From positions 1-35,343 of IMG/VR virus record IMGVR_UViG_3300032236_000281: a DNA stretch of 35,343 bases; one strand, 5' to 3'. The notes beneath the pieces are model-generated. The model saw nothing but the letters and a program-made list of their open reading frames with translations, was not told the origin of the DNA and ran no database searches. The DNA is from a virus. This document shows positions 1-30,411 of this stretch, piece by piece. The stretch's first letter is position 1. The number at the start of each line of letters is the position of its first letter. The translations under genes were made by a program, and so were the position numbers.

Positions 1-1114
1 CAGATAAAGTATTTTGGTTGGTAGATGTGCTATCACTGTTGTTGTTAAGTTCACTAGAAATCTGATTAACTTCTTTTTGTAAATTGGATATTTCAGATAA
101 AGTATTTTGGTTATTTGTATTACCACCAATATTGGTTGCACTTTGGTTATTTGTATTACCACCAATATTGGTTGCACTTTGGTTATTTGTATTACCACCA
201 ATATTGGTTGCACTTTGGTTGGATGTGTTATCACCAATATTGGTTGCACTTTGATTGGCTATATTTTGCATCTCAATATTAGATTTTTCAGCCAATTCTT
301 TTTCTTTTAACATACGTGCATCGGCTTTTGTTGCTGGGTCCAGGCCTTGATGTTTCAATAATTGAGCAATGTTTTGACGAATAACATTCATATCTCTTGA
401 CATGCCAATTAAAGCCGTTGTATTTTTAGCAATTACATCTAAGAATGATGAACCTGTTCCTCCATCATTTGAATATGATGGTTTCTTTTCAGTTTTGACG
501 GCCGACTTTGGTGATTTCTTTTCACTAGGTGGTGGTGAAGGAATATCTTCTTCTTCATCAATTGGTTCTGGTGCATGAATACCAGTGTAGTATGTGATAT
601 CTTCTTTGGCACGACCCATTTTGGTGCCATAGGCTGTTGTTGCCATTTTACCAAGACCACCTGGTAACTTACTCAAGTAGTTCATTGGGTCTTTTAGTTT
701 CTTGAGGCTCGTCATGTAAGCACCAAAGAGGTCCTTGCCACCCCCTTTGAGTGATTCTTTGATGCCTTGACCTGACATCATTCTTTCAGAAACTAATTGG
801 GAGAACCCCTTTTGTTTGTTGACATCGGCCTGCTCATATCCAGAACCAGTTCTCATTCTACGGCGAACTGGTTTACCATTAGCACCTACTGTATAGTAGT
901 AACCATGGCTTTCTTTTGGATTAGCACGGTCATGGTAGGCATCATACTCTGGATGCTCTTTAGCTTTCTTTTTATTATCTTCAGTTTTAGCATTTTCTGA
1001 ATTTAATTGCTTAGCTAATAAGTCAGCAACTCCATCACCTTTACGTGGTTTGGTTTGCTTAGAAGCGCCTATACTACTTTTATCGACACCTTGTTTTTTC
1101 TTATCTTCTGCCAT
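1..1114 (-). CDS. Tape-measure-position tail protein (partial, 3' end outside window)
   Basis: An open frame begins with ATG at 1114-1112 and runs off the left edge with 371 codons and no stop. The start shares its A with the TAA of the preceding short frame (TAATG), which implies translational coupling. The N-terminus is Lys-rich and charged. A central block has LVSERMMSGQG, then DPMNYLSKLPGGLGKMA and GRAKEDITYYTG. A Pro/Lys/Glu linker follows, then a hydrophobic helix region (SSFLDVIAKNTTALIGMSRD). Residues 289-336 are four 12-residue Asn-rich units (SATNIGGNTNNQ type), followed by predicted coiled coil (EISNLQKEVNQISSEL). I did not recognise the family with certainty. The role is inferred from position, because tape measure genes normally follow the tail assembly chaperones. 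A baseplate hub-associated structural protein is the alternative. Confidence 0.6.
   Translation of the reverse strand, partial: MAEDKKKQGVDKSSIGASKQTKPRKGDGVADLLAKQLNSENAKTEDNKKKAKEHPEYDAYHDRANPKESHGYYYTVGANGKPVRRRMRTGSGYEQADVNKQKGFSQLVSERMMSGQGIKESLKGGGKDLFGAYMTSLKKLKDPMNYLSKLPGGLGKMATTAYGTKMGRAKEDITYYTGIHAPEPIDEEEDIPSPPPSEKKSPKSAVKTEKKPSYSNDGGTGSSFLDVIAKNTTALIGMSRDMNVIRQNIAQLLKHQGLDPATKADARMLKEKELAEKSNIEMQNIANQSATNIGDNTSNQSATNIGGNTNNQSATNIGGNTNNQSATNIGGNTNNQNTLSEISNLQKEVNQISSELNNNSDSTSTNQNTLS
107..250 (-). repeat. Four tandem 36-bp repeats inside the tape-measure-position gene
   Basis: Units lie at 107-142, 143-178, 179-214 and 215-250. The first three are essentially identical and the fourth has several substitutions. 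Each encodes 12 residues in frame (SATNIGGNTNNQ type). A partial echo of the flank (cagataaagtattttggtt) occurs at 1-19 and again at 94-112, so a larger repeat order may continue beyond the window. Confidence 0.9.
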
Positions 1115-1311
1115 TACCGTTTTCTCTCAGCATTTTTCTGTTTAATTTTTTCATTCTCAGCTTCAACGTACTGAATTAGCAACGCAACGTAAATGTCACG
1201 TTCCCAAGGCATCATATTTTCAAGTTCTTCAAGGCTATAGTGATGGTGTTGCATTAGTGAGAAATTAGTTTTATAATAATTTCCCAATGTATCATAACGA
1301 AAGGTTACCCA
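1114..1311 (-). CDS. gp51-position short frame, likely the -1 frameshift extension of the gp26-like protein
   Basis: Read in the -1 frame after the slippery T7 run, this gives 65 residues (WVTFRYDTLGNYYKTNF, then an HHHYSLEELENMMPWERDIY segment and a charged helix ending NAERKR) before TAA at 1116-1114. The first ATG in this frame is at 1254-1252 and would give only 46 residues. That ATG has no visible Shine-Dalgarno sequence, and the conserved-looking part begins upstream of it, which favours expression by frameshifting. The stop overlaps the next gene's ATG. In T4, genes 26 and 51 are adjacent baseplate hub assembly factors. In lambda-type phages the equivalent slot holds a frameshifted tail assembly chaperone. 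A separately initiated 46-aa protein remains possible. Confidence 0.6.
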   Translation of the reverse strand, partial: WVTFRYDTLGNYYKTNFSLMQHHHYSLEELENMMPWERDIYVALLIQYVEAENEKIKQKNAERKR

Positions 1312-2030
1312 AAAAAACTTTGAAGCCCTTGTAACTCAATTTTGTGGTCAAATCCACATTTCTTACATTTAATATCTACAACTTTATCAAGTTTAGGTAA
1401 ATTGTCAATAAAGAATTCAATTTTCTCAAATTGTTCTTTGGTCATAGACTCAATAAAATTTAATAATTCTTCTTGTGAAACTTCATTAGCATAATATAAT
1501 GTATCATTATCGTATACATAATCAATACATTCTAACACAAGTTTAAAAGCTGAATCTGTGGCAGAATCATTTGATTTAATTTTCTTAGATACCTCAAAAT
1601 TAGGGTATCTCATCTTAATACCAACAGAATCAGAAATCTTAATTAAATCCGAACCTTCTGGTGGTTGTGTTACATTGACATTTAAAATATCAAAATTAAC
1701 ATCCATTAAGTTACCACACTTTTCACCGTTTACTTCATTCTCACATTTATATCGGCTGTCTACAACTTCACCAACAGACCTTGCTCTTAAATTTAAGAAA
1801 TAATATTCAATGTCAACTAAAGGTAAAGTGTCGATGTTTACATCTGACAAATTACAATTATTCAAAATCATTTGAATGTTATTTTCAATTTCTTTTTCAT
1901 CTTTTGATTCCATTGCTATCAATAGAATCTTCTGTTCTTTGACCAAAAAAGGTCTAAATTTCAATTGTACTTGTGATATCGGCAGTGTAATTTCATACAC
2001 TGGAGTATCAATCTTGGGTAAAGCCATCAT
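1305..2030 (-). CDS. 26: gp26-like baseplate hub assembly protein / tail chaperone (T4_baseplate family)
   Basis: The protein is 241 aa (T4 gp26 is about 208). It starts MMALPKIDTP, continues with a segment typical of this family (ITLPISQVQLKFRPFLVKEQ, then KILLIAMES) and has an acidic middle. Two cysteine pairs (C in YKCENEVNGEKCG and C in IKCKKCG) look like a split four-Cys zinc site. The family acts in hub assembly in T4 and probably as a chaperone rather than a virion part. A strong AGGAG lies just upstream of the first of two consecutive ATGs. The gene ends in QSFFG-stop across the slippery T7 run, so a 305-aa fusion with the next frame is predicted as a minor product. Confidence 0.75.
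   Translation of the reverse strand: MMALPKIDTPVYEITLPISQVQLKFRPFLVKEQKILLIAMESKDEKEIENNIQMILNNCNLSDVNIDTLPLVDIEYYFLNLRARSVGEVVDSRYKCENEVNGEKCGNLMDVNFDILNVNVTQPPEGSDLIKISDSVGIKMRYPNFEVSKKIKSNDSATDSAFKLVLECIDYVYDNDTLYYANEVSQEELLNFIESMTKEQFEKIEFFIDNLPKLDKVVDIKCKKCGFDHKIELQGLQSFFG
1311..1317 (-). other. Candidate programmed -1 ribosomal frameshift site (T TTT TTT)
   Basis: The zero-frame codons are AGT TTT TTT GGG TAA, so the heptamer T TTT TTT fits the X XXY YYZ rule exactly. The zero-frame stop is two codons downstream. A -1 slip continues as TGG GTA ACC TTT CGT and stays open for 65 codons to 1114. A weak flanking pairing (GTTAC upstream, GTAAC downstream) was seen, but there is no convincing pseudoknot. 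Confidence 0.6.
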
Positions 2031-2059: not shown

Positions 2060-2791
2060 TTATAAATTCATTCCACCTATAAACTGATTCGTATATGTTG
2101 TTGCTTGGTCAACCAATGGTGATGGTTGTGACATCAAATTCATACCACCTATAAACTGATTTGTGTAACTGGCCGCTTGGTCATTAATTGTATCTTGTAC
2201 AGAACTACTGCCAGATGGATTGCCAGCTGGACCACCAACTGTTGGTGTTGATGCAACTGCTTGTTGGTCTGGTGTTATAATTTCAATACTTTGCCAATAA
2301 CGATATGTAAATACCACACTTAATTTGTGATATACAGTTTCGTTTGACCAATCCAAATCTAATTGATTAACCAATAATGGAAAAGCATCAATCAATTTGA
2401 CAGCATATGAAACTTCATTTGCTACATCATATTGGGAAATGGTGATATCTGATACATAATTTTTTTTATATTCCATGTTCCAAGTTTCTGATGGGTTAAT
2501 CAATTCTAACCAATTATCAAAAGCTTTCTTTTCTTTCATACTATCTGAAACAATAAAAGTCATGGTTATGTCATCGTAAGAAGTTCTATGTGGAAACTTT
2601 TCAGATGGGCCATAAATTCGTAAGTCGGCCGTTTCGATTGTACGGCCAGGCATATTAGACATCTCACATCTCATTGCAAGAGTTTCGGTGGAAATAGCAC
2701 CTGCCACTTTTGATGGCAATTTTATTAATACATTAAATTTTGAAGGTCTAGCTAAGTCACTAGTGAAACTGGCTAAAAATTTGTCTATCAT
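2060..2791 (-). CDS. gp19-family tail tube protein (gp54 junction or gp19 tube role)
   Basis: 243 aa. The first ~170 residues follow the T4 gp19/gp54 tube-fold pattern: RPSKFNVLIKLP near the N-terminus, a CEMSNMPGRTIET segment, a YGPSEKFPHRTSYDD block, FDNWLELI, YVSDITISQYD, IDAFPLLVNQLDLDWS and a final VVFTYRYWQ strand. This fold stacks as hexameric rings in the tail tube, or starts the tube on the baseplate. After about residue 175 there is a Pro/Ser/Gly linker and two copies of a DQA-SYTNQFIGGMNL-like segment. The ATG overlaps the upstream gene's stop (ATGA). In T4 gene 54 lies beside 48, so gp54 is plausible here, but the short length fits gp19 plus a tail. I cannot separate the two without a search. 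Confidence 0.7.
   Translation of the reverse strand: MIDKFLASFTSDLARPSKFNVLIKLPSKVAGAISTETLAMRCEMSNMPGRTIETADLRIYGPSEKFPHRTSYDDITMTFIVSDSMKEKKAFDNWLELINPSETWNMEYKKNYVSDITISQYDVANEVSYAVKLIDAFPLLVNQLDLDWSNETVYHKLSVVFTYRYWQSIEIITPDQQAVASTPTVGGPAGNPSGSSSVQDTINDQAASYTNQFIGGMNLMSQPSPLVDQATTYTNQFIGGMNL
2062..2185 (-). repeat. C-terminal duplicated segment of the gp19-family protein
   Basis: Two imperfect copies encode DQA(A/T)(S/T)YTNQFIGGMNL, separated by a short MSQPSPLV linker. The second copy ends at the stop codon. The DNA copies share most bases (both contain ccacctataaactgatt). Confidence 0.8.
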
Positions 2792-18907: not shown

Positions 18908-21900
18908 ATGGCACTAAATTTTAATGTATCTCCATACTATGACGATTTTGACCCAAACAAAAATTTCCATAGAATTCTATTTAAGCCTGGATATGCAGTT
19001 CAAGCGAGAGAATTAACACAATCTCAAACAATTCTACAGAATCAAGTTTCAACTTTTGCTTCTGCTATTTTTGCTCAAAATACACCAATCTCTGGCGGTA
19101 AAGTAACTATCAATACAAGTTGTGATTATATTAAATTACAATCAAAATATCTTAACGCTACTATTGATGTAACTTTATTTGAAAATCAAACTATTCAAAA
19201 TCAAACTGGAGATGTTTTAGCACGTGTTATAGCGGTAGCTCCTGCTACTGATCCTGATCCAACAAAAGGTGACCCAGCTACTTTGATGGTTACTTATGTG
19301 ACTGGAACTAAATTTAAAAATAGTGATGTCATCTACCTTGTAACTAATCCAAGTATAGCTGCCCAAGCTTTTGCTCAAAACGCAACTGGTCGTGGTTCAG
19401 TGGCTTCAGTGTCACAAGGTGCATTCTATGTAGTTAACGGAAATTATTTTTCAGATGTAACTCAATCAACTTATCAAGTAGGTAATTTTGTAAATGTTTT
19501 ACCTCAAACAGTTATCTTGGACAAATATGATGGTACACCAACATTAAGACTTGGTTTAAATATTGTTGAAACCATTTATGATTATGTTGATGATGTATCA
19601 TTATTGGATCCTGCTAGTGGTGCTGCTAATTATCAAGGTCAAGGCGCTGACCGTTATGTTATTCAATTAAATTTAGAAACACGTCCAATTACATTAGGTG
19701 ACGATGATGCTTTTATTGAATTAGCTCGTGTTAAAGATGGTAATATTGTTAAATTATTAGATAGAACAGCATATTCATCATTGGATGATTATTTCGCTCT
19801 TAGAACATTTGAAACAAATGGTGACTTCATTGTTAACAAATTTGATTTAACTGCTTTATCTAATACTGCTACACCAAATGGTAATGGCGGTTATTCACAA
19901 TATGATTTGAAAATTGGTAAAGGCGTGGCATATGTTCACGGTTATCGTTTAGAAAATCAAAGTGATTTAACATTAACAAATGACAGAGCACAAACATCAA
20001 TTACACAGACTAATCATAATAATTACATTGATTATGGCCAATATTTTTATGTTGATACTGTTAGTGGTGTATTTGACCCTACAGTGGCACAAAAAGTTGA
20101 TTTACATATTACACCATCTTCAGGCATCAATTCAGCCAATGCTACAACTTATAATTCAACATTAGTTGGTTCTGGTTATTTAAGAGGTCTTGTTTATGAC
20201 CATAATACTTCAGATGCCGCTACATCTTCATATGTGTTTAAATCATATGTTTATAACATTGTATCTAATACATTAACTGCTAATGCAGCGGCTGGTGCAG
20301 CTTACACTATTACATTCCCAGCAACACCTGGCCAATTCTCAGCAACAGCAAACGCATACTATAATGCTACGCTTGTTATTACGAATGGTCCTTCAGCTGG
20401 AGATAAACGTAGAATTGTTAGTTACGATGCTGCAACAAGAATTGCTACTGTGGATGCAGCCTTCTCTGCAACTCCTACTACAGCATCTGTATTTGCTTTA
20501 CAGTTATCAACTAAAGACGTTGATTCTGTTGTTACGGCTAATTCCACATATGCCTTGACTGCAAATTCTAACATTAATATTGAAAGTAAAGTTGGCGGTG
20601 TTGCAACTAATGCTACAATTTATGAAAATACAAATAATCCTCAGTTAATTTATAACGTTGGTTATCCATATGTTTCATCTATTACATCAGCTAGTTACTA
20701 TTCAACACAAACTTTCAGAAATAAATCTTTTGGTGGTACTTCATTAAGTATTACTTTGGCTAATCCAGGTGTGGTTAGTTTTGAAGGCGGACCTGGTACA
20801 CTTTCATCTGATGCAATCAAACAGAACTTTACTGCTACTGTGTCAGCTACAACAAATTCCGCTAATACGGGTGTAGTTGGTTCTATATTCAATCTTGCTG
20901 ATACTGCTAATGTTTCTGTGGTTGTTTCTGGCACTTACAATCAAATTCTAACGATTACTGATTTGACTGCTCACGGTAAGTTTACAAACGGAACAGGTTT
21001 ACAATTAACTATCGTTGCAAAAGTTAGTGTTGATGATGCATCTGATGCTCAACATGTATTAAAAACTAAAACATTAATAACAGGTAATACAACATCTAAC
21101 ACCGCAGTATCTGGCGGCACGGTGGTTAATACCAATACATATGTTGATTTGACCAATGCTCAAGTATACATTAAGAAAGCTGGTCTTGTTACCGCAGGTA
21201 CACCACAAACATTATATGTAACAGATTTGAAAAATATTGTTAAGATTGTTGATTCATTGGATCCAACTAAAGCAGTATCAATTGCTATGTTGTCTAATCC
21301 TGTTTATGATATCACCAACAAGTATACACTAGATAACGGTCAAAGAGATTCAATCTATGACCATGCTGCTATTACATTAAAACCTGGCGCAAACCAACCA
21401 ATTGGTAATATTTTGGTTATTTTCAACTACTATTCACACACTTCTCAGCTAGCTGATGGTTATTTTAGTTATGAATCATATAGAAATAGTGGTGAAACAT
21501 ATGGTAGTATTCCAACATACACAAGTATTTCTGGATTAAAATACGCATTAAGAGATTGTATTGATTTTAGACCTTCTCGCCTAAATGCAACTTCAACATT
21601 TACATTTGAATATACTGGTACACCTAGTGTTGATGACACTGGTACGCTTATTCCTCAAGATTTGACAAATTTCAAGAGTGATTATTCATATTACTTGGGT
21701 CGTAAAGATATTTTAGTATTAAGTAAAGACAAAAATTTTCAAATTATTCAAGGAAATCCAGCACTTAATCCAATATTCCCAAATCAACCAGATGGTTCAT
21801 TGTTGGTTGCTAAATTGTCACATGATCCATATACAGTTTATATTCCTAGTGAAGCACCCGTTGGCGTTTTACCTAACTTATCTATTGAGAAAGTTAAACA

Positions 21901-24900
21901 TCGCCGTTGGAGAATGCAAGATATTTCTGAATTAGAAGAACGATTTGAAACAAATTCAACAACTTTGACATCATTAGAACAAAATTTTGCCAATGAACAA
22001 ATTCTTGATAGTCAAGGCAAAGATAGACCAAAAAATGCTATTATTGTGGATGACTTTACTGCTTACAATGTAGTTGATACTTCTAATCCTGATTTCTCAA
22101 CTTCTATTGATACCTTAAAGAAAATTCTTTATCCAGCTCAAGCAGTAACAAACTATTCATTACAAGCAAATACATCAGTCAATAGTTTTGGTCAATTGAG
22201 TTCTGGTACTTTACTCAATTTAGGTTACACTTTACATAATATTGGTACAGCTTCAACTTATATTACATTACCTTATACTGCTTCTCCTGTTATTACTCAA
22301 CAATTAGCAAGTAGAACATTAAACTTGAATCCATTCTCAGTTCAAGTTTTCCAAGGCGTATGTAGTTTGTATCCTCCAATGGACAATTGGGTTGACAATA
22401 CTGTTGCGCCTGATTTGTTATTGGCTAATATTGACAACTTAGTTCAATCATCATCTATTAATGCAACTAATGTTACCAATTACCAAGCAATTCCTGGTAC
22501 ACAATATGCAACTGCTAACACCACAAGTTTGGTAAATTCTTACACATTGAATAATAGTTTTATTTCTAATAACTCTATTCAACCATATATTAGACCACAA
22601 CAGGTAATTGTTCGTGCTAAAAACATGAAGGTTAATACACCTGTTGATTGTTATTTTGATGGCGTTAAAGTTAGTCAATATATGACTAATCCTGATATTA
22701 TTGAATTATCAAATGCTTCTGGCTTATTCCAAGAAGATGACGTAATTGGCTTAAAGAGTTCTGTAGATAATAACTTCTACCCAATTGCTGTTGTTGCTAA
22801 TATCTACCAATATCCATCATCAAATAATGTTCGTCTGTATGTAACAAGTAACTTCCATACAGATTATAATTTCTTCACTCAAGGCGAAGCTATTACTAAC
22901 ATTATTTCTAATGCTAAGTTTGATGCTAACGGTAATTATGTAAGTAATACGGCTTTTGGTTATATTACTGATTCACGCATTGTTACTACAAAAAATAATG
23001 GTTTGATTGTTGGTGTTGGTGGGTCATTTACAGATGCCAATTCGAATACAATCACTGGTGTTTATTCAGTAACGCAGGTTGGTTATGGTAACTTTGCTAC
23101 ATCTTATGGTGTATGGCATAATCAAAATCGTACTACTGGTCAAATTTATGATGTTACTGTTCCATTAACAGTTACAGCAAATGGCACATATTATTTTGCT
23201 GCAATGGGTGATGATGAAGTTGGTGTTTATTTAAATGGAGTTCAAGTTGCTGGTGGTTCTACTTCTGGCGCTTTATATACATATTCAACTACATTAGTTG
23301 CCGGCACAACATACAATCTTCGTGTATTAAATACATTAAGTGATAATGATTGTTTTGTTGCCGTAGCCATATCAACTAAATCATGGACAACTGGTCCTAA
23401 TGCAACAACTTTAGGTACTGTTGTTTGGTCAACTAGAACACCACACACTACCACATTACCATCAGCAATTAATGGCGTAGCTCAAGTATTCTCTTTACCT
23501 GGAGGTGGTGTATATTACACAGGTGTAACTAAAGTTGCTTTGAGTCCAGCGTCAAGTAATGTGTCAACTAGCATGTATGTTGGTTCAAAAATCAATATTA
23601 CTACAAATTACATTTCATATGCTAATGCTAATGTATCATTTAGCCAATCTATGGTTAATAGTGCTAATAATGTTGGTAAATCAACACCATATTATTTCTC
23701 TGCTAATGTTACATCATATGACCCAACCACAAGAATTGCTACACTTGATACACCAGTAAGTATATCTATTGGTCAAAACTTGACTTACAATAATATTGAT
23801 TCAACATATACGTTGATTGGTACTGCTAATAATTATGTTGTATCTCAAAGTGCTGGTGGCCTTTCATCATTGTCAACTAATGAAAACGGAACATTCTGTG
23901 GTATATTCAATGTACCTGCTGCAACATTTACAAATCAAACGAAAACATTCCGTGTTGATAATAGAAGTATTCCAAATGATGGTTCAACAGCAACTACATA
24001 TTCTGAAGCAACATTCTATGGTTCAAGTTTAGGTACTATTAACGCCACTTCAGGTCAGTTCTCACCTTCTGTGGTGGCCGCTTCGCAAGTTATTCTTTCA
24101 ACTGCTCAAGCACCTAATGTTGTTATTAACCCAAGTACATTAACTAACTTATTGGATCCAATTGCTCAAACCTTTAGTATTGATGCAACAACTTATACTC
24201 ATGGTTTATTCTTGTATTCAATGAAGTTCTTCTTCCAAAGTAAAGCAACTACAACACAAGTTCCAGTTAACTTATCAATTGTTGGAACATCAAATGGTGT
24301 ACCAAATGGCGTTACTTTAGATAACTCTATTGTTACTTTAACTCCCGATAGAGTGAATGTTTCAAATACACCTTATGTTGGAACAAGTTCAACTGCTACT
24401 GAGTTTGTATTCAAGGCGCCTGTTTATATTCAACCTGGTGTAACATATTCTATTATCTTACAATCACAATCTACTGAATATAATGTTTGGATTGCTTCTC
24501 AAAATGATACAGCATTACAATCATCTGTTGGAGCAAACACAGTTGCAATCACTAAAATTTCAGCAGTTCCATATGCTGGTTCATTATTTGAAACACAAAA
24601 CGGAATTAATTGGATTGGTGATGCAACTAAATCATTAATGTTTGTTGTTAATCGTTGTGCGTTTGATACAACTAAAAAACCTAAAATTCCATTTGTTGTT
24701 CCAACTGGCGCAAAAACTCATAAATTAGTACAACAAAATATTGCTAATTATTATGGTACAGGTTTGGTTAACTTCCCAAATAATATGTCAAACAATGACG
24801 TTGAAATTGATGCTTTGAATGTAACAACAACTGATTACATTCCAACTAAAACCAATATCACTTATTCATATAAAGCTATGTTGAAAAATACTCGCTCAAT

Positions 24901-25804
24901 GGATATTGAAAGACCTATTGTTCCTGGTCGTTCAGGTTCTCCTAATTTACAAAATGAAAACTTGTATGATAATTTAGGACCAAGAGTATTACAAGCAAAC
25001 AATGCTAATTCATTTGTATTGTATGCTACTATGTCTTCAACTGATTCAAACATTTCACCAATCATCGCTGATGATGGTTTAACAATGTATAATGTGACAT
25101 GGGGTATCAATAATTTACCATTGAATAACAATTTGATTACATTAATTGGTGGTGGTTCAGGTTACAATGTAATGACTACTCAAGCTAATGTGTCTTCTCC
25201 AGATTTTGGTAGTAGTAAAGCAACAGCCAATGTAACTATTCAAAATGGTGTAATCACTGGTGTCAATATCGTAAATCCTGGTGCTGGTTATTTAACACCA
25301 CCATCAATTACAATCTTTGATGCTAATACTGTTCCTGGTTCTGGTGCTGCTGTTGTAGTTGCTTCTGAGTTCTCACCTAAGGGTGGTAATGCAATTGCTA
25401 AATACATAAGTAAAATTATTCCTTTATCTGCTGCAAATGAATCTGGTGATTTTAGATTCTACTTTAATGGATACTTACCAATTGGAACTAACATCTATGT
25501 ATTCTATCGTGTTCTAAATACTAATGATAGTCAAAGATTTGAAAACGGTGCATGGCAATTAATGACATATATCAATAATTCATTTAGATATTCACAAAGT
25601 ATTTCTGATATGGTTGATTTCCAATTAGCTCCAGGTATTAATGGTGTTGCTAATAACTCTGTAAGTTACACAAGTGCTTCATCTGGTTCTGTTTATAATA
25701 CTTTCAATCAATTTGCTTTCAAAGTTATTATGACAACTGATGATAATACTAAAGTGCCATTTATTAATCATTTAAGTATTATTGCAACTCCGGCAGGAGC
25801 ATAG
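18908..25804 (+). CDS. Giant DUF4815-type baseplate/tail fibre protein with a lectin-like domain
   Basis: 2298 aa. The N-terminus FNVSPYYDDFDPNKNFHRIL followed by LFKPGYAVQARELTQSQ matches the DUF4815 family of T4-like phages of water bacteria. Near residues 990-1060 the family block VKHRRWRMQDISELEERFE, then RPKNAIIVDDFTAY is seen. Residues ~1363-1495 look like a PA14- or lectin-type beta sandwich (TANGTYYFAAMGDDEVGVYL with NGVQVAG). Residues ~2078-2151 hold a GxGY module (VNPGAGYLTPPSITIF). The C-terminus (YINNSFRYSQSISDMVDFQL, INHLSIIATPAG) looks like the end of a fibre base. It is likely an outer baseplate or fibre-attachment protein, in the gp10 position by order. AAGGA precedes the ATG. 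Confidence 0.75.
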   Translation: MALNFNVSPYYDDFDPNKNFHRILFKPGYAVQARELTQSQTILQNQVSTFASAIFAQNTPISGGKVTINTSCDYIKLQSKYLNATIDVTLFENQTIQNQTGDVLARVIAVAPATDPDPTKGDPATLMVTYVTGTKFKNSDVIYLVTNPSIAAQAFAQNATGRGSVASVSQGAFYVVNGNYFSDVTQSTYQVGNFVNVLPQTVILDKYDGTPTLRLGLNIVETIYDYVDDVSLLDPASGAANYQGQGADRYVIQLNLETRPITLGDDDAFIELARVKDGNIVKLLDRTAYSSLDDYFALRTFETNGDFIVNKFDLTALSNTATPNGNGGYSQYDLKIGKGVAYVHGYRLENQSDLTLTNDRAQTSITQTNHNNYIDYGQYFYVDTVSGVFDPTVAQKVDLHITPSSGINSANATTYNSTLVGSGYLRGLVYDHNTSDAATSSYVFKSYVYNIVSNTLTANAAAGAAYTITFPATPGQFSATANAYYNATLVITNGPSAGDKRRIVSYDAATRIATVDAAFSATPTTASVFALQLSTKDVDSVVTANSTYALTANSNINIESKVGGVATNATIYENTNNPQLIYNVGYPYVSSITSASYYSTQTFRNKSFGGTSLSITLANPGVVSFEGGPGTLSSDAIKQNFTATVSATTNSANTGVVGSIFNLADTANVSVVVSGTYNQILTITDLTAHGKFTNGTGLQLTIVAKVSVDDASDAQHVLKTKTLITGNTTSNTAVSGGTVVNTNTYVDLTNAQVYIKKAGLVTAGTPQTLYVTDLKNIVKIVDSLDPTKAVSIAMLSNPVYDITNKYTLDNGQRDSIYDHAAITLKPGANQPIGNILVIFNYYSHTSQLADGYFSYESYRNSGETYGSIPTYTSISGLKYALRDCIDFRPSRLNATSTFTFEYTGTPSVDDTGTLIPQDLTNFKSDYSYYLGRKDILVLSKDKNFQIIQGNPALNPIFPNQPDGSLLVAKLSHDPYTVYIPSEAPVGVLPNLSIEKVKHRRWRMQDISELEERFETNSTTLTSLEQNFANEQILDSQGKDRPKNAIIVDDFTAYNVVDTSNPDFSTSIDTLKKILYPAQAVTNYSLQANTSVNSFGQLSSGTLLNLGYTLHNIGTASTYITLPYTASPVITQQLASRTLNLNPFSVQVFQGVCSLYPPMDNWVDNTVAPDLLLANIDNLVQSSSINATNVTNYQAIPGTQYATANTTSLVNSYTLNNSFISNNSIQPYIRPQQVIVRAKNMKVNTPVDCYFDGVKVSQYMTNPDIIELSNASGLFQEDDVIGLKSSVDNNFYPIAVVANIYQYPSSNNVRLYVTSNFHTDYNFFTQGEAITNIISNAKFDANGNYVSNTAFGYITDSRIVTTKNNGLIVGVGGSFTDANSNTITGVYSVTQVGYGNFATSYGVWHNQNRTTGQIYDVTVPLTVTANGTYYFAAMGDDEVGVYLNGVQVAGGSTSGALYTYSTTLVAGTTYNLRVLNTLSDNDCFVAVAISTKSWTTGPNATTLGTVVWSTRTPHTTTLPSAINGVAQVFSLPGGGVYYTGVTKVALSPASSNVSTSMYVGSKINITTNYISYANANVSFSQSMVNSANNVGKSTPYYFSANVTSYDPTTRIATLDTPVSISIGQNLTYNNIDSTYTLIGTANNYVVSQSAGGLSSLSTNENGTFCGIFNVPAATFTNQTKTFRVDNRSIPNDGSTATTYSEATFYGSSLGTINATSGQFSPSVVAASQVILSTAQAPNVVINPSTLTNLLDPIAQTFSIDATTYTHGLFLYSMKFFFQSKATTTQVPVNLSIVGTSNGVPNGVTLDNSIVTLTPDRVNVSNTPYVGTSSTATEFVFKAPVYIQPGVTYSIILQSQSTEYNVWIASQNDTALQSSVGANTVAITKISAVPYAGSLFETQNGINWIGDATKSLMFVVNRCAFDTTKKPKIPFVVPTGAKTHKLVQQNIANYYGTGLVNFPNNMSNNDVEIDALNVTTTDYIPTKTNITYSYKAMLKNTRSMDIERPIVPGRSGSPNLQNENLYDNLGPRVLQANNANSFVLYATMSSTDSNISPIIADDGLTMYNVTWGINNLPLNNNLITLIGGGSGYNVMTTQANVSSPDFGSSKATANVTIQNGVITGVNIVNPGAGYLTPPSITIFDANTVPGSGAAVVVASEFSPKGGNAIAKYISKIIPLSAANESGDFRFYFNGYLPIGTNIYVFYRVLNTNDSQRFENGAWQLMTYINNSFRYSQSISDMVDFQLAPGINGVANNSVSYTSASSGSVYNTFNQFAFKVIMTTDDNTKVPFINHLSIIATPAGA
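25795..25799 (+). promoter_or_regulatory. Ribosome binding site AGGAG that fixes the next start
   Basis: AGGAG lies inside the last codons of the DUF4815 gene, six bases before ATG 25806. An earlier in-frame ATG at 25782 has no such site, so 25806 is chosen. Confidence 0.65.
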
Positions 25805-26034: not shown

Positions 26035-29000
26035 ATGGCAAATACTATACAAAATATCAGTTTATCTAATACCTTTAGTGATTGGGTTAGTACAACTATT
26101 CAGACCGTCAATGAGATTAATTCAATTGGTAATTATGAATGGCATAAAACTGGAGGTACATTATACTTAGATAGTATTGGTAATGCTTTAGATGTTGCTA
26201 ATACCGCCTACTTCCGAGGCACACTGAATGTGCCAGGCACTCTAGTTAACCCTACTTTAAATTCAGCATATAATCAAGCTAATACTGCATATAATTATGC
26301 AGTAGCGGCAAATAACTGGTTGCAAGCAAATGACGCTTTGACTTTGGCTACGTCTGAATTATATACCGATACCAATATTGTTGCTAATGTAGCTATTGTT
26401 GAATTATACACTGATACAAATATTAAAGCTAACGTTGTCACTTTAAATAATAATATTAAATCTAATGTATCTACTATAAACAGTAGCATTAGTGCTAACG
26501 TTGTTACTTTAAATAATAATATTACTGGTAATTTAGCCGTATCACAAACATGGGCTAACACAATTGGTGGTTACGCTAACACCTATGCTGATTCTGTTGG
26601 TGTCAGAGCTAATACCTATAGTACATCTTATACAAATTCAATTGGTGCTTCAGCCAATACTTATGCGGATTCTGTTGGCGTGAGAGCTAACACTTATAGC
26701 ACTTCATACACAAATAGTATTGGTGCAAGTGCTAATAACTTCTCAATGAATTATGCTAATAATATTGGTGTGTATTCTAACAATTATACAGACGTTGCTA
26801 ATTCAAAAAATATTCTATACACCAATACACAGATTACATCCAATTTAGCAATAGCTAACACATATGCTGATTCTGTTGGTGTTAGAGCAAATAATTATAG
26901 CACAACTTACACAAACATAGTTGGTGCTTCAGCTAATGCTTATGCTGATGTTGTTGGAACTAGAGCTAACACATTTAGCACAAACTATACCAACACAGTT
27001 GGTGGTTACGCTAATAATTACACAGATTCATCCAACACTAAAAATATATTATATACTAATAGTCAAATTAGTGCCAATTTGGTAATTGCTAACACATATG
27101 CCGATTCTGTAGGTGTTAGAGCAAATACCTATAGCACATCTTATACTAATAGTATAGGTGTCTCAGCTAACAATTATGCCGATTCAGTAGGCACTAGAGC
27201 TAACACTTATAGCACTAACTACACTAACACAATTGGTGGGTATGCTAATAATTATACAGATTCTTCAAATAGTAAAAATATATTATATACTAATAGTCAA
27301 ATTAGTGCCAATTTGGTAATTGCTAATTCTTATGGTGATATTGTAGGAACTAGGGCTAATAATTATTCAATGAATTATGCCAATACTATTGGTACATATG
27401 CTAATAATTATACAGATTCATTGGGTTCAAGAGCTAATAATTACACTATGTCATATGCCAATACTATTGGTACATATGCTAATACCTATAGCACCAACTA
27501 TACTAATAGTATAGGTAATTCTGCTAACACATATGCTGATTTAGTTGGAACTAGAGCTAATACTTATAGTACAACTTATACAAATTCAATTGGTGCTTCA
27601 GCCAATAATTATGCAAATACAATTAGCACAAATTCAAATAATTACACAAATAGTATTGGTGTAAGTGCTAATAACTACTCAATGTCTTATGCTAATACAA
27701 TTGGTGGTTATGCTAATAACTTCAGCACTACAGCAAATACTAATTTAAGAAATTATGTAGAATCTAAATTCTTATCAAGAGCGGCTGGTATTGCAAATAC
27801 ATTAACCGGCACATTATATGGCGTAGACGCTATATTCTCAGGTGGAGTCTCTGTTGGTGGTAATTTCACAATCAATGGTTCAACAGTTTATAACTCTGAT
27901 ACATTTACATTAAATTCAGCCGCATCAGTTAATGCTAATGCTTATTTGGTAAACTATAGACCAGGTGGTGCTAATTCACAAATTCGATGGAACGAATCTA
28001 GTCAATATTGGGACATTCGTGATATAAACAGTCCTTCAAATTACTATCAAATAATTACATCTCAACAAGTTGCTAGCACATCACAAGCTGGTGTGGTTCA
28101 GTTAATTGATTCTGTTACATCTACAAGCGCAACATTAGCTCCAACTGCCAGTGCTTTAAAAACAGCAAATGATTCTATCACATCATCAAATACAGCATTG
28201 ACAAATTATGTTAATACTGCAAATACTTATCACACCAACTACACTAACACAGTTGGTGGTTATGCTAACACTTATGCTGATTCTGTAGGTACAAGAGCAA
28301 ATACTTATAGTACCAACTATACAAATAGCATTGGTGTAAGTGCCAATAACTTCTCAATGAGTTATGCCAATACAATTGGTGTATATTCTAATAACTATAC
28401 AAATAGTATCGGTGTATCTTCTAACAACTATACTAATAGTATAGCAGTGAGTGCCAATAACTTCTCAATGAGTTATGCCAATACAATTGGTGTATATTCT
28501 AATAACTATACAAATAGTATTGGTGTTAGTGCTAATAACTACTCCAATTCAATTGGTGCTTCAGCTAATAACTATGCCGACTCAGTAGGTACAAGAGCTA
28601 ACACATTTAGCACAAACTATACCAACACAGTTGGTGGTTACGCTAACACATATAGCACAAACTATACCAACACAGCAAATACCAACATGAAAAACTATGT
28701 TGATACTGCTAATACAAATTTAAAAAATTATACAGATTCAACTTTCATTAAAGGTGTGGCGGCTGGTACTGTACAAACAATTTTATCCGATGTAACTGTA
28801 ACAGGTAATTTGATTATTAACGGTGCAACAACAACTGTTAATACAACAACTATTCAAACTACAGATTCATTAATTGAGTTAGCTAAGTATAATACTGCTG
28901 GTGACTCATTAGATATTGGTTTCTATGGTGCTTATCAAACAGGCGGTTTCACTCGATTTACTGGTTTGTTCCGTAAGGCTGCTGACAAATATTACTTGTC

Positions 29001-30411
29001 ACAAGGTATCACTGTTGACCCTACTGCAAATAACGTTGGTCAATATGGTACAAACTATCGTGCTACATTAGATGCAAACTTTACAGGTGGTTCTGTTTCT
29101 GGTTTATCACAAGCTATTACAGTTGGTGACGGCGGCACTGGTGTTCAATCTATCAATGCTGGTCAAATTGTAATTGGTAATGGTACTGGAAATATCTTAA
29201 CATTATCAAATACAGGTTCTTCTGTTGGTGCTTCAAACGGTACATATATTCCTGTTATCACTGTCGACCAATGGGGTCGCACTACTGTGTCAGGTAATGT
29301 TATTGTTATTGATGCTGGTGCTAACTCTTACGCTGATTTAGTTGGAACTAGAGCTAATACGTATAGCACAACATACACTAATAGTATTGGTACAAGTGCC
29401 AATAATTATTCAATGGCATATGCTAATAATATTGGCGTTTATGCTAATAACTTTAGTACAACATCCAATACTAATAACATCTTATACACCAATACACAAA
29501 TTAGTGCTAATTTAGCCGTATCGCAAACATGGGCTAACACAATTGGTGGGTATGCTAATAACTTTAGCACTACGGCAAATAGTAATAATATTCTATACAC
29601 CAATACACAAATTTCTGCCAATTTAGCCGTATCACAAACATGGGCTAACACAATTGGTGGTTACGCTAATACATATGCTGACTCTGTAGGCACTAGAGCT
29701 AATACATATTCGAATTCTATTGGTGTCAGTGCAAATAATTTCTCAATGAGTTATGCTAACACTATTGGTGTGTATGCTAATAATGTTTCAGCGCTCAAAG
29801 TTTCAAGTATTACCGGTAATTCTGGCGCTATTGTTGTAACAACTGGTACTGTTCCAACAATCAACTTGGCAACTACTGCTGTATCTCCTGGCATATATGG
29901 TGGTACAACACAAATTCCTGTTATTACAATTGACTCTTTTGGACGTGCTACATCAGCTGCTAACGTGGCATTTAGTGGCGGTTCTACTGTTTCAATTACA
30001 GATGATACAACAACCAACTCAACAAGATATCCATTATTTGCTGATGCTACTAACGGAACAGTAAGTACCGTTTATACTTCTTCAACTGATTTAGTTTATA
30101 ATCCTTCAACTGGTACATTATCAGCTACTATCTTTACTTCTCTTTCAGACCAAAGTTTGAAGGATAACGTTCAGACTGTGCCTAATGCTGTTGATACTAT
30201 CAATCAGTTGAACGGTGTTTCATTCAACTGGAAGACAACAGGCAATAAATCATATGGTGTAATCGCTCAAGAAATTGAACAAGTATTACCAGATGTTGTA
30301 CATGTACGTGAAGATGGTATCAAAACTGTAGATTATCAAGCTTTATCTGCTTTCTTAATTGAAGCAATTAAAGAATTGTCAAATGAAATTGACCAACTTA
30401 AAAAGAAATAA
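26035..30411 (+). CDS. Long tail fibre with 11/15-residue repeats and C-terminal S74 intramolecular chaperone
   Basis: 1458 aa. The head (~1-90) contains TFSDWVSTTIQTVNEINSIG, usual for fibre N-termini of this group. Residues ~165-579, ~725-902 and ~1088-1252 are repeats like GTRANTYSTNYTNSI and GASANNYADSV. A module at ~590-680 includes NYRPGGANSQIRWNES. Residues ~903-1010 include DSLIELAKYNTAGDSLDIGF, then RFTGLFRKAADKYYLSQG, a domain shared with the 907-aa fibre. The C-terminal ~90 residues are Peptidase_S74: Ser1371 in SDQSLKDNV with Lys1376, then SFNWKTTGNKSYGVIAQEIE and DYQALSAFLIEAIKEL. That domain trimerises the fibre, then cuts itself off N-terminal to the serine. The role is host adsorption. 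Confidence 0.88.
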   Translation: MANTIQNISLSNTFSDWVSTTIQTVNEINSIGNYEWHKTGGTLYLDSIGNALDVANTAYFRGTLNVPGTLVNPTLNSAYNQANTAYNYAVAANNWLQANDALTLATSELYTDTNIVANVAIVELYTDTNIKANVVTLNNNIKSNVSTINSSISANVVTLNNNITGNLAVSQTWANTIGGYANTYADSVGVRANTYSTSYTNSIGASANTYADSVGVRANTYSTSYTNSIGASANNFSMNYANNIGVYSNNYTDVANSKNILYTNTQITSNLAIANTYADSVGVRANNYSTTYTNIVGASANAYADVVGTRANTFSTNYTNTVGGYANNYTDSSNTKNILYTNSQISANLVIANTYADSVGVRANTYSTSYTNSIGVSANNYADSVGTRANTYSTNYTNTIGGYANNYTDSSNSKNILYTNSQISANLVIANSYGDIVGTRANNYSMNYANTIGTYANNYTDSLGSRANNYTMSYANTIGTYANTYSTNYTNSIGNSANTYADLVGTRANTYSTTYTNSIGASANNYANTISTNSNNYTNSIGVSANNYSMSYANTIGGYANNFSTTANTNLRNYVESKFLSRAAGIANTLTGTLYGVDAIFSGGVSVGGNFTINGSTVYNSDTFTLNSAASVNANAYLVNYRPGGANSQIRWNESSQYWDIRDINSPSNYYQIITSQQVASTSQAGVVQLIDSVTSTSATLAPTASALKTANDSITSSNTALTNYVNTANTYHTNYTNTVGGYANTYADSVGTRANTYSTNYTNSIGVSANNFSMSYANTIGVYSNNYTNSIGVSSNNYTNSIAVSANNFSMSYANTIGVYSNNYTNSIGVSANNYSNSIGASANNYADSVGTRANTFSTNYTNTVGGYANTYSTNYTNTANTNMKNYVDTANTNLKNYTDSTFIKGVAAGTVQTILSDVTVTGNLIINGATTTVNTTTIQTTDSLIELAKYNTAGDSLDIGFYGAYQTGGFTRFTGLFRKAADKYYLSQGITVDPTANNVGQYGTNYRATLDANFTGGSVSGLSQAITVGDGGTGVQSINAGQIVIGNGTGNILTLSNTGSSVGASNGTYIPVITVDQWGRTTVSGNVIVIDAGANSYADLVGTRANTYSTTYTNSIGTSANNYSMAYANNIGVYANNFSTTSNTNNILYTNTQISANLAVSQTWANTIGGYANNFSTTANSNNILYTNTQISANLAVSQTWANTIGGYANTYADSVGTRANTYSNSIGVSANNFSMSYANTIGVYANNVSALKVSSITGNSGAIVVTTGTVPTINLATTAVSPGIYGGTTQIPVITIDSFGRATSAANVAFSGGSTVSITDDTTTNSTRYPLFADATNGTVSTVYTSSTDLVYNPSTGTLSATIFTSLSDQSLKDNVQTVPNAVDTINQLNGVSFNWKTTGNKSYGVIAQEIEQVLPDVVHVREDGIKTVDYQALSAFLIEAIKELSNEIDQLKKK
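26530..29790 (+). repeat. Coding repeats of the 1458-aa fibre, three blocks
   Basis: Units are 33 or 45 bp. They include an exact 71-bp direct repeat at 28339-28409 and 28450-28520 (offset 111 bp). Blocks are roughly 26530-27770, 28210-28740 and 29300-29790, separated by unique modules. Confidence 0.85.

Follow-up and report, generated by a model that had tools for sequence, protein, structure and literature searches.

A gp26-like gene predicted to specify two tail-assembly chaperones by -1 frameshifting on a run of T, and its relation to T4 genes 26 and 51

The window analysed here is the whole stretch of an IMG/VR virus record (35,343 nucleotides, about 35 kb), and all window coordinates refer to it. 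The virus is tailed and a distant relative of phage T4. Its minus strand carries a gp4-like, a gp2-like and a gp19-family gene, followed by a gp26-like open reading frame (ORF) and by an ORF that runs off the window end (Table 1). The gp26-like ORF matches PF12322 (T4_baseplate, E 9.8e-61) and phrog_150 (E 4.9e-66). For the ORF behind it, family searches returned no family match of its own, and in the relatives HTVC008M and phiM12 tape-measure genes are annotated one gene further down. This ORF also contains four copies of a 36-nt repeat (106-253) that encode repeated QSATNIGGNTNN motifs. Elsewhere in the window, the first 1339 residues of a 2298-aa ORF (18908-25804) match phrog_358, a family of unknown function, and a 1458-aa tail-fibre-like protein (26419-29671) is encoded with extensive tandem repeats of 33, 78, 111 and 234 nt.

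Table 1. Features of the gp26-like locus and its surroundings in window coordinates.
Feature	Position	Strand	Evidence or remark
gp4-like head-closure gene	3891-3451	-	
gp2-like end protector	3438-2788	-	
gp19-family tail-tube-like protein, directly upstream of the gp26-like gene	2060..2791	-	phrog_45 E 3e-38; PF06841 E 1.8e-6
gp26-like ORF, 241 aa, predicted short tail-assembly chaperone (TAC-N)	1305..2030	-	
Weak Shine-Dalgarno (SD)-like AAGGG, 8 nt before the heptamer, candidate 5' frameshift stimulator	1326..1330	-	
Slippery heptamer T_TTT_TTT, in phase with gp26 and separated from the stop by a single sense codon	1311..1317	-	sequence; conservation
gp26-frame stop codon TAA, which the proposed shift would bypass	1305..1307	-	
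-1 frame extension, 65 codons and TAA, starting at the re-read base 1311; predicted gp51-type C-terminal domain of TAC-NC	1114..1311	-	
ORF in tape-measure position, its ATG overlapping the -1 frame stop (TAATG)	2..1114	-	cut by window end

The 3' end of the gp26-like ORF reads AGT TTT TTT GGG TAA. An earlier note on this DNA had taken the TTTTTTT heptamer, the open -1 frame behind it and a predicted fusion of 305 aa as signs of a programmed -1 frameshift, and all three were confirmed. The heptamer lies in the gp26 frame as T_TTT_TTT, followed by GGG and the stop codon; the -1 frame is open for 65 codons up to a TAA at 1116-1114, which overlaps the ATG (1114-1112) of the next ORF; and conceptual -1 translation gives the fusion at the length proposed. 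In-phase T_TTT_TT occurs 6 times in the 10,862 codons of the window ORFs, and about 0.007 occurrences are expected by chance in a gene's final 12 codons. A second in-phase copy, T_TTT_TTG, is found near the start of the same gene (codon 27, window about 1950, minus strand). Family searches with the peptide of the -1 frame gave phrog_634 (E 2e-28), annotated as ‘baseplate hub assembly catalyst’. They also gave the C-terminal region of phrog_150, the gp26 profile (E 2.6e-8); phrog_150 therefore seems to include fused members. With this peptide as query, tblastn (E up to 0.01) gave matches in 587 phage records, and many matches overlap gp26 at its 3' end. Judged from sequence, the -1 frame is coding.

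For a wider comparison, homologous loci were gathered from IMG/VR and from named phages by means of the gp26 protein, a gp26 alignment and an alignment of the -1 peptide. Thinning to at most 93% identity provided 158 non-redundant loci, with the window counted and T4 kept apart. The heptamer T_TTT_TTN was present in the gp26 phase in all 158, located 7-16 nt before the stop and in 132 loci at -10. Behind the stop the -1 frame remained open for at least 120 nt in every locus (158/158), the +1 frame in none (0/158). The conservation of both the T run and the open overlap among homologues, proposed earlier as a check, is thus complete, and the constancy of the heptamer rules out chance as its explanation. 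The heptamer-bearing phages include S-PM2, P-SSM2, P-HM1, Melnitz, HTVC008M, phiM12 and RL2RES, furthermore Vibrio phi-ST2 and D491s and a Desulfovibrio phage; T4 itself is without it. Two adjacent ORFs of this kind resemble one broken gene, such that the split might be taken for a sequencing error or for the decay of a formerly fused gene. The same junction recurs across the 158 non-redundant loci, and cultured, named phages have it too; this refutes the reading, whose probability we consider negligible.

Codon choice at the junction was evaluated on 103 loci from outside the -1 peptide scan; most of these were found with gp26 and a few named phages were picked from the -1 peptide search. The first Phe of the site was encoded by TTT in 103/103 loci, where 68 would be expected from each gene's own codon use, and the codon preceding it ended in T, again without exception (73 expected). 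The second Phe was TTC in 79 of the 103 loci, even though TTC makes up only 31% of the Phe codons in these genes. After thinning to 16 loci below 40% identity the codon bias persisted (log10 P -5.6 and -3.8). In RL2RES, a Leu replaces the second Phe (TTT TTG) and the T6 run is retained. The excess of TTT and of T-ending codons together with the T6 kept in RL2RES indicates a nucleotide signal under selection, beyond the constraint on the protein.

Besides translation by a slipping ribosome, the C-terminal part could be made from a separate short gp51 gene that is entered by reinitiation or coupling at an internal ATG after gp26, with no fusion being formed. Database records do annotate gp51 as its own gene, and in the Vibrio and Rhizobium relatives a TAATG or TGATG at the gp26 stop would allow reinitiation there as well. 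In the window, the earlier note had described 1254 as the only ATG of the -1 frame and as being without a ribosome site. The first part did not hold, since further ATGs are found at 1215 and 1212, and TTGs at 1287 and 1182. The second part did: with the scan used, an SD-like motif was absent before every ATG or TTG candidate of the -1 frame in the window. The first ATG moreover sits 19 codons into the conserved domain, and it is not kept in evolution, several relatives having Ile, Val or Ala at this place, as had been suggested. Across the family, an SD-preceded start was seen in only 8/158 loci, and the possible independent starts of the other 150 are without an SD-like motif; the expectation that the short frame has no conserved start with a ribosome site is borne out by these numbers. 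No ATG at all occurs within 25 codons in 21/158 loci, the conserved residues of the extension begin directly at the FF junction, and a separate gene would leave the universal heptamer without a reason. Because conserved starts with a ribosome site are lacking, an independent gp51 start was rejected, and we regard a separate short gene as very unlikely.

The region upstream of the heptamer carries a further signal. Nine-base windows that end about 6-9 nt before the heptamer can pair with the 16S anti-SD sequence with a mean of about -6 kcal/mol; the family-mean peak is -6.4 kcal/mol versus -0.9 gene-wide. Resampling of synonymous codons yielded only -4.97 ± 0.13 and reached the observed value in 0/100 cases, and the pairing exceeded synonymous resampling after each thinning as well (0/200). 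Within the motif, 46 of 72 loci encode Glu by GAG, against an expectation of 19. The AAGGG of the window (-4.2) is weaker than the family average, the family type being a stronger GAGG. The T4-type gp26 genes, which have no heptamer, reach values of -3.7 to -6.5 at some point of the corresponding 30-nt stretch, so that part of the SD-like element is explained by coding constraint. For a start codon of the -1 frame the element is unsuitably placed, and it may serve as a 5' frameshift stimulator. On the 3' side, RNAalifold gave no consensus structure for a conserved stem, neither for the 103 loci nor for the 27 closest ones; single-sequence folding of the individual loci was mildly strong just downstream of the heptamer (mean z -1.1).

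Alternatively, the frame change could arise in transcription, with the RNA polymerase instead of the ribosome slipping on the T run. The window has a run of 7 T that might allow this. In 80/103 loci, however, only 6 T precede another base, which is short for efficient transcriptional slippage, described on runs of 9 (PMC5009743). Two features of ribosomal slippage are also present, namely an invariable X_XXY_YYZ codon phase and an SD-like element upstream. Transcriptional slippage is therefore extremely unlikely, and we return to the slipping ribosome as the preferred reading.

Structure models were calculated with an alignment from the window and the IMG/VR loci. The AlphaFold2 model of the short form reached a pLDDT of 88.5. 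For its residues 1-96, the best PDB matches were 3fgx (Z 7.8), 3klu (7.1) and 2ob9 (6.9), the next being at 4.7; these values, all below 8 and obtained in a VIA-align second look, constitute the whole of the fold support. 2ob9 is the HK97 tail-assembly chaperone gp13; the predicted fold agrees with a tail chaperone, the match being moderate and not decisive at such Z values. A PDB sequence search with the gp26 profile found nothing relevant, and Foldseek of the model against the PDB gave no significant match. The gp51 model, from a shallow alignment of 8 sequences, had a pLDDT of 81. Its N-domain shows an order of elements similar to that of the short form, followed by three C-terminal helices, and no chaperone folds were among the structure matches listed for this shallow-alignment model.

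Profile alignments connect both predicted products to T4. With hhalign, the conceptual fusion aligned to the T4 gp51 family over 243 columns (99.7% probability, E 1e-26) without a gap at the junction, and the short form aligned to T4 gp26 (99.6% probability, E 2.7e-24). The -1 extension matched the C-terminus of T4 gp51 (profile E 1.1e-11), and T4 gp26 matched the N part of gp51 (E 1.8e-24); by these alignments the two T4 proteins are paralogues. T4 carries genes 26 and 51 on opposite strands, and in Pseudotevenvirus they are adjacent. The alignments and gene layouts lead to the view that T4 supplies as two genes what the window lineage makes from one: T4 and its near relatives have two separate genes with gp51 as an in-frame long form, in contrast to one gene and a -1 site in the window. 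By homology, the short and the long tail-assembly chaperone predicted for the frameshift-type lineage have their T4 counterparts in genes 26 and 51, respectively.

Passages in PMC10885494 and PMC12846349 credit Vladimirov, Gautam and Davidson (2022) with identifying the tail-assembly chaperones of T4-like phages. Citing that work, PMC10885494 states that frameshifting is replaced in some T4-like phages by a short gene plus a long, fused one, and PMC12846349 states that TAC-N genes of T4-like phages are known to contain poly-T frameshift signals. As far as these passages describe it, this is apparently the same pair of short and long proteins, which our alignments assign to the gp26 and gp51 types. 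The connection of T4 26/51 with a G/GT-type system put forward in the earlier note thus stands as homology, from the gp26 and gp51 alignments, while the novelty hoped for does not, given the 2022 work. The gene kind and the T4 26/51 link are already in the literature; the present analysis adds the SD-like element and the scale of conservation, for both of which no earlier report was found in the literature searched.

Phage lambda uses the slippery sequence G_GGA_AAG for G/GT. The window lineage differs from it by its T_TTT_TTN site, by N-domain Cys pairs (in this clade) and by a conserved 5' SD-like element. Common to both are a -1 slip, predicted for the window lineage, towards the 3' end of a tape-measure-region gene and a minor, C-terminally extended form (PMC5009743). 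The same source calls G-T frameshifting widely conserved in long-tailed phages ‘except T4’. With E. coli dnaX (PMC3711429, PMC5009743) the window shares a homopolymeric slippery heptamer and an upstream SD-like element as candidate stimulator; this dnaX-type feature, about 10 nt 5' of the heptamer, is present family-wide and weak in the window. Unlike dnaX, the run consists of T rather than A, a conserved 3' stem-loop was not found, and the predicted product becomes longer rather than shorter. Vandenendeviridae and Andersonviridae, which are other phage families, likewise conserve a poly-T -1 site where TAC-N ends (PMC12846349).

Taken together, it is very probable that one gene gives rise to two tail-assembly chaperones by a -1 slip on T_TTT_TTT, with probable SD-like help in most relatives and, by analogy, with lambda-like roles of the products. 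From the sequence features we infer that in vivo most ribosomes would stop at the TAA and release the short form. A minority would slip back by one base on the heptamer, where the two Phe-codon tRNAs re-pair to TTT TTT, and would read 65 more codons to give the long form (TAC-NC), whose C-terminus would be helical and of the gp51 type. The SD-like element of most relatives would probably assist by base-pairing to 16S rRNA. Lambda gpG and gpGT suggest roles by analogy: the N part common to both forms may coat the tape measure, and the extension may recruit tail-tube subunits.

In an N-domain tree, which is unrooted and has long branches, one branch (99/97) split the frameshift type from the two-gene type, and a Schizotequatrovirus-type Vibrio phage was nearest to the two-gene group. 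The two-gene form is probably the derived one, given that frameshift forms are found in several other families; the order of events is deduced from an unrooted tree. We lean slightly towards an SD-assisted shift on T_TTT_TTN as the ancestral means by which T4-superfamily phages obtained both chaperones, with Straboviridae duplicating the gene after the split from the Vibrio Schizotequatrovirus line, such that the long form would have become hard-wired as 51 and 26 would have kept the short form.

Public annotation of gp51 is inconsistent: it is absent from the S-MbCM7 and DSL-LC03 records, starts just past the gp26 stop in S-PM2 and P-SSM2, and starts deeper in the domain in Melnitz and HTVC008M. 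Cyanophage, pelagiphage and Vibrio phage records often list gp51 separately, use a doubtful ATG or omit it, and our data indicate that the gp51 of such records would be the C-terminus of a frameshifted gp26. The family provides a large natural data set for a poly-U slippery site with a candidate SD-like stimulator, and it suggests that frameshifting and a pair of separate paralogous genes are alternative ways of supplying the same two proteins.
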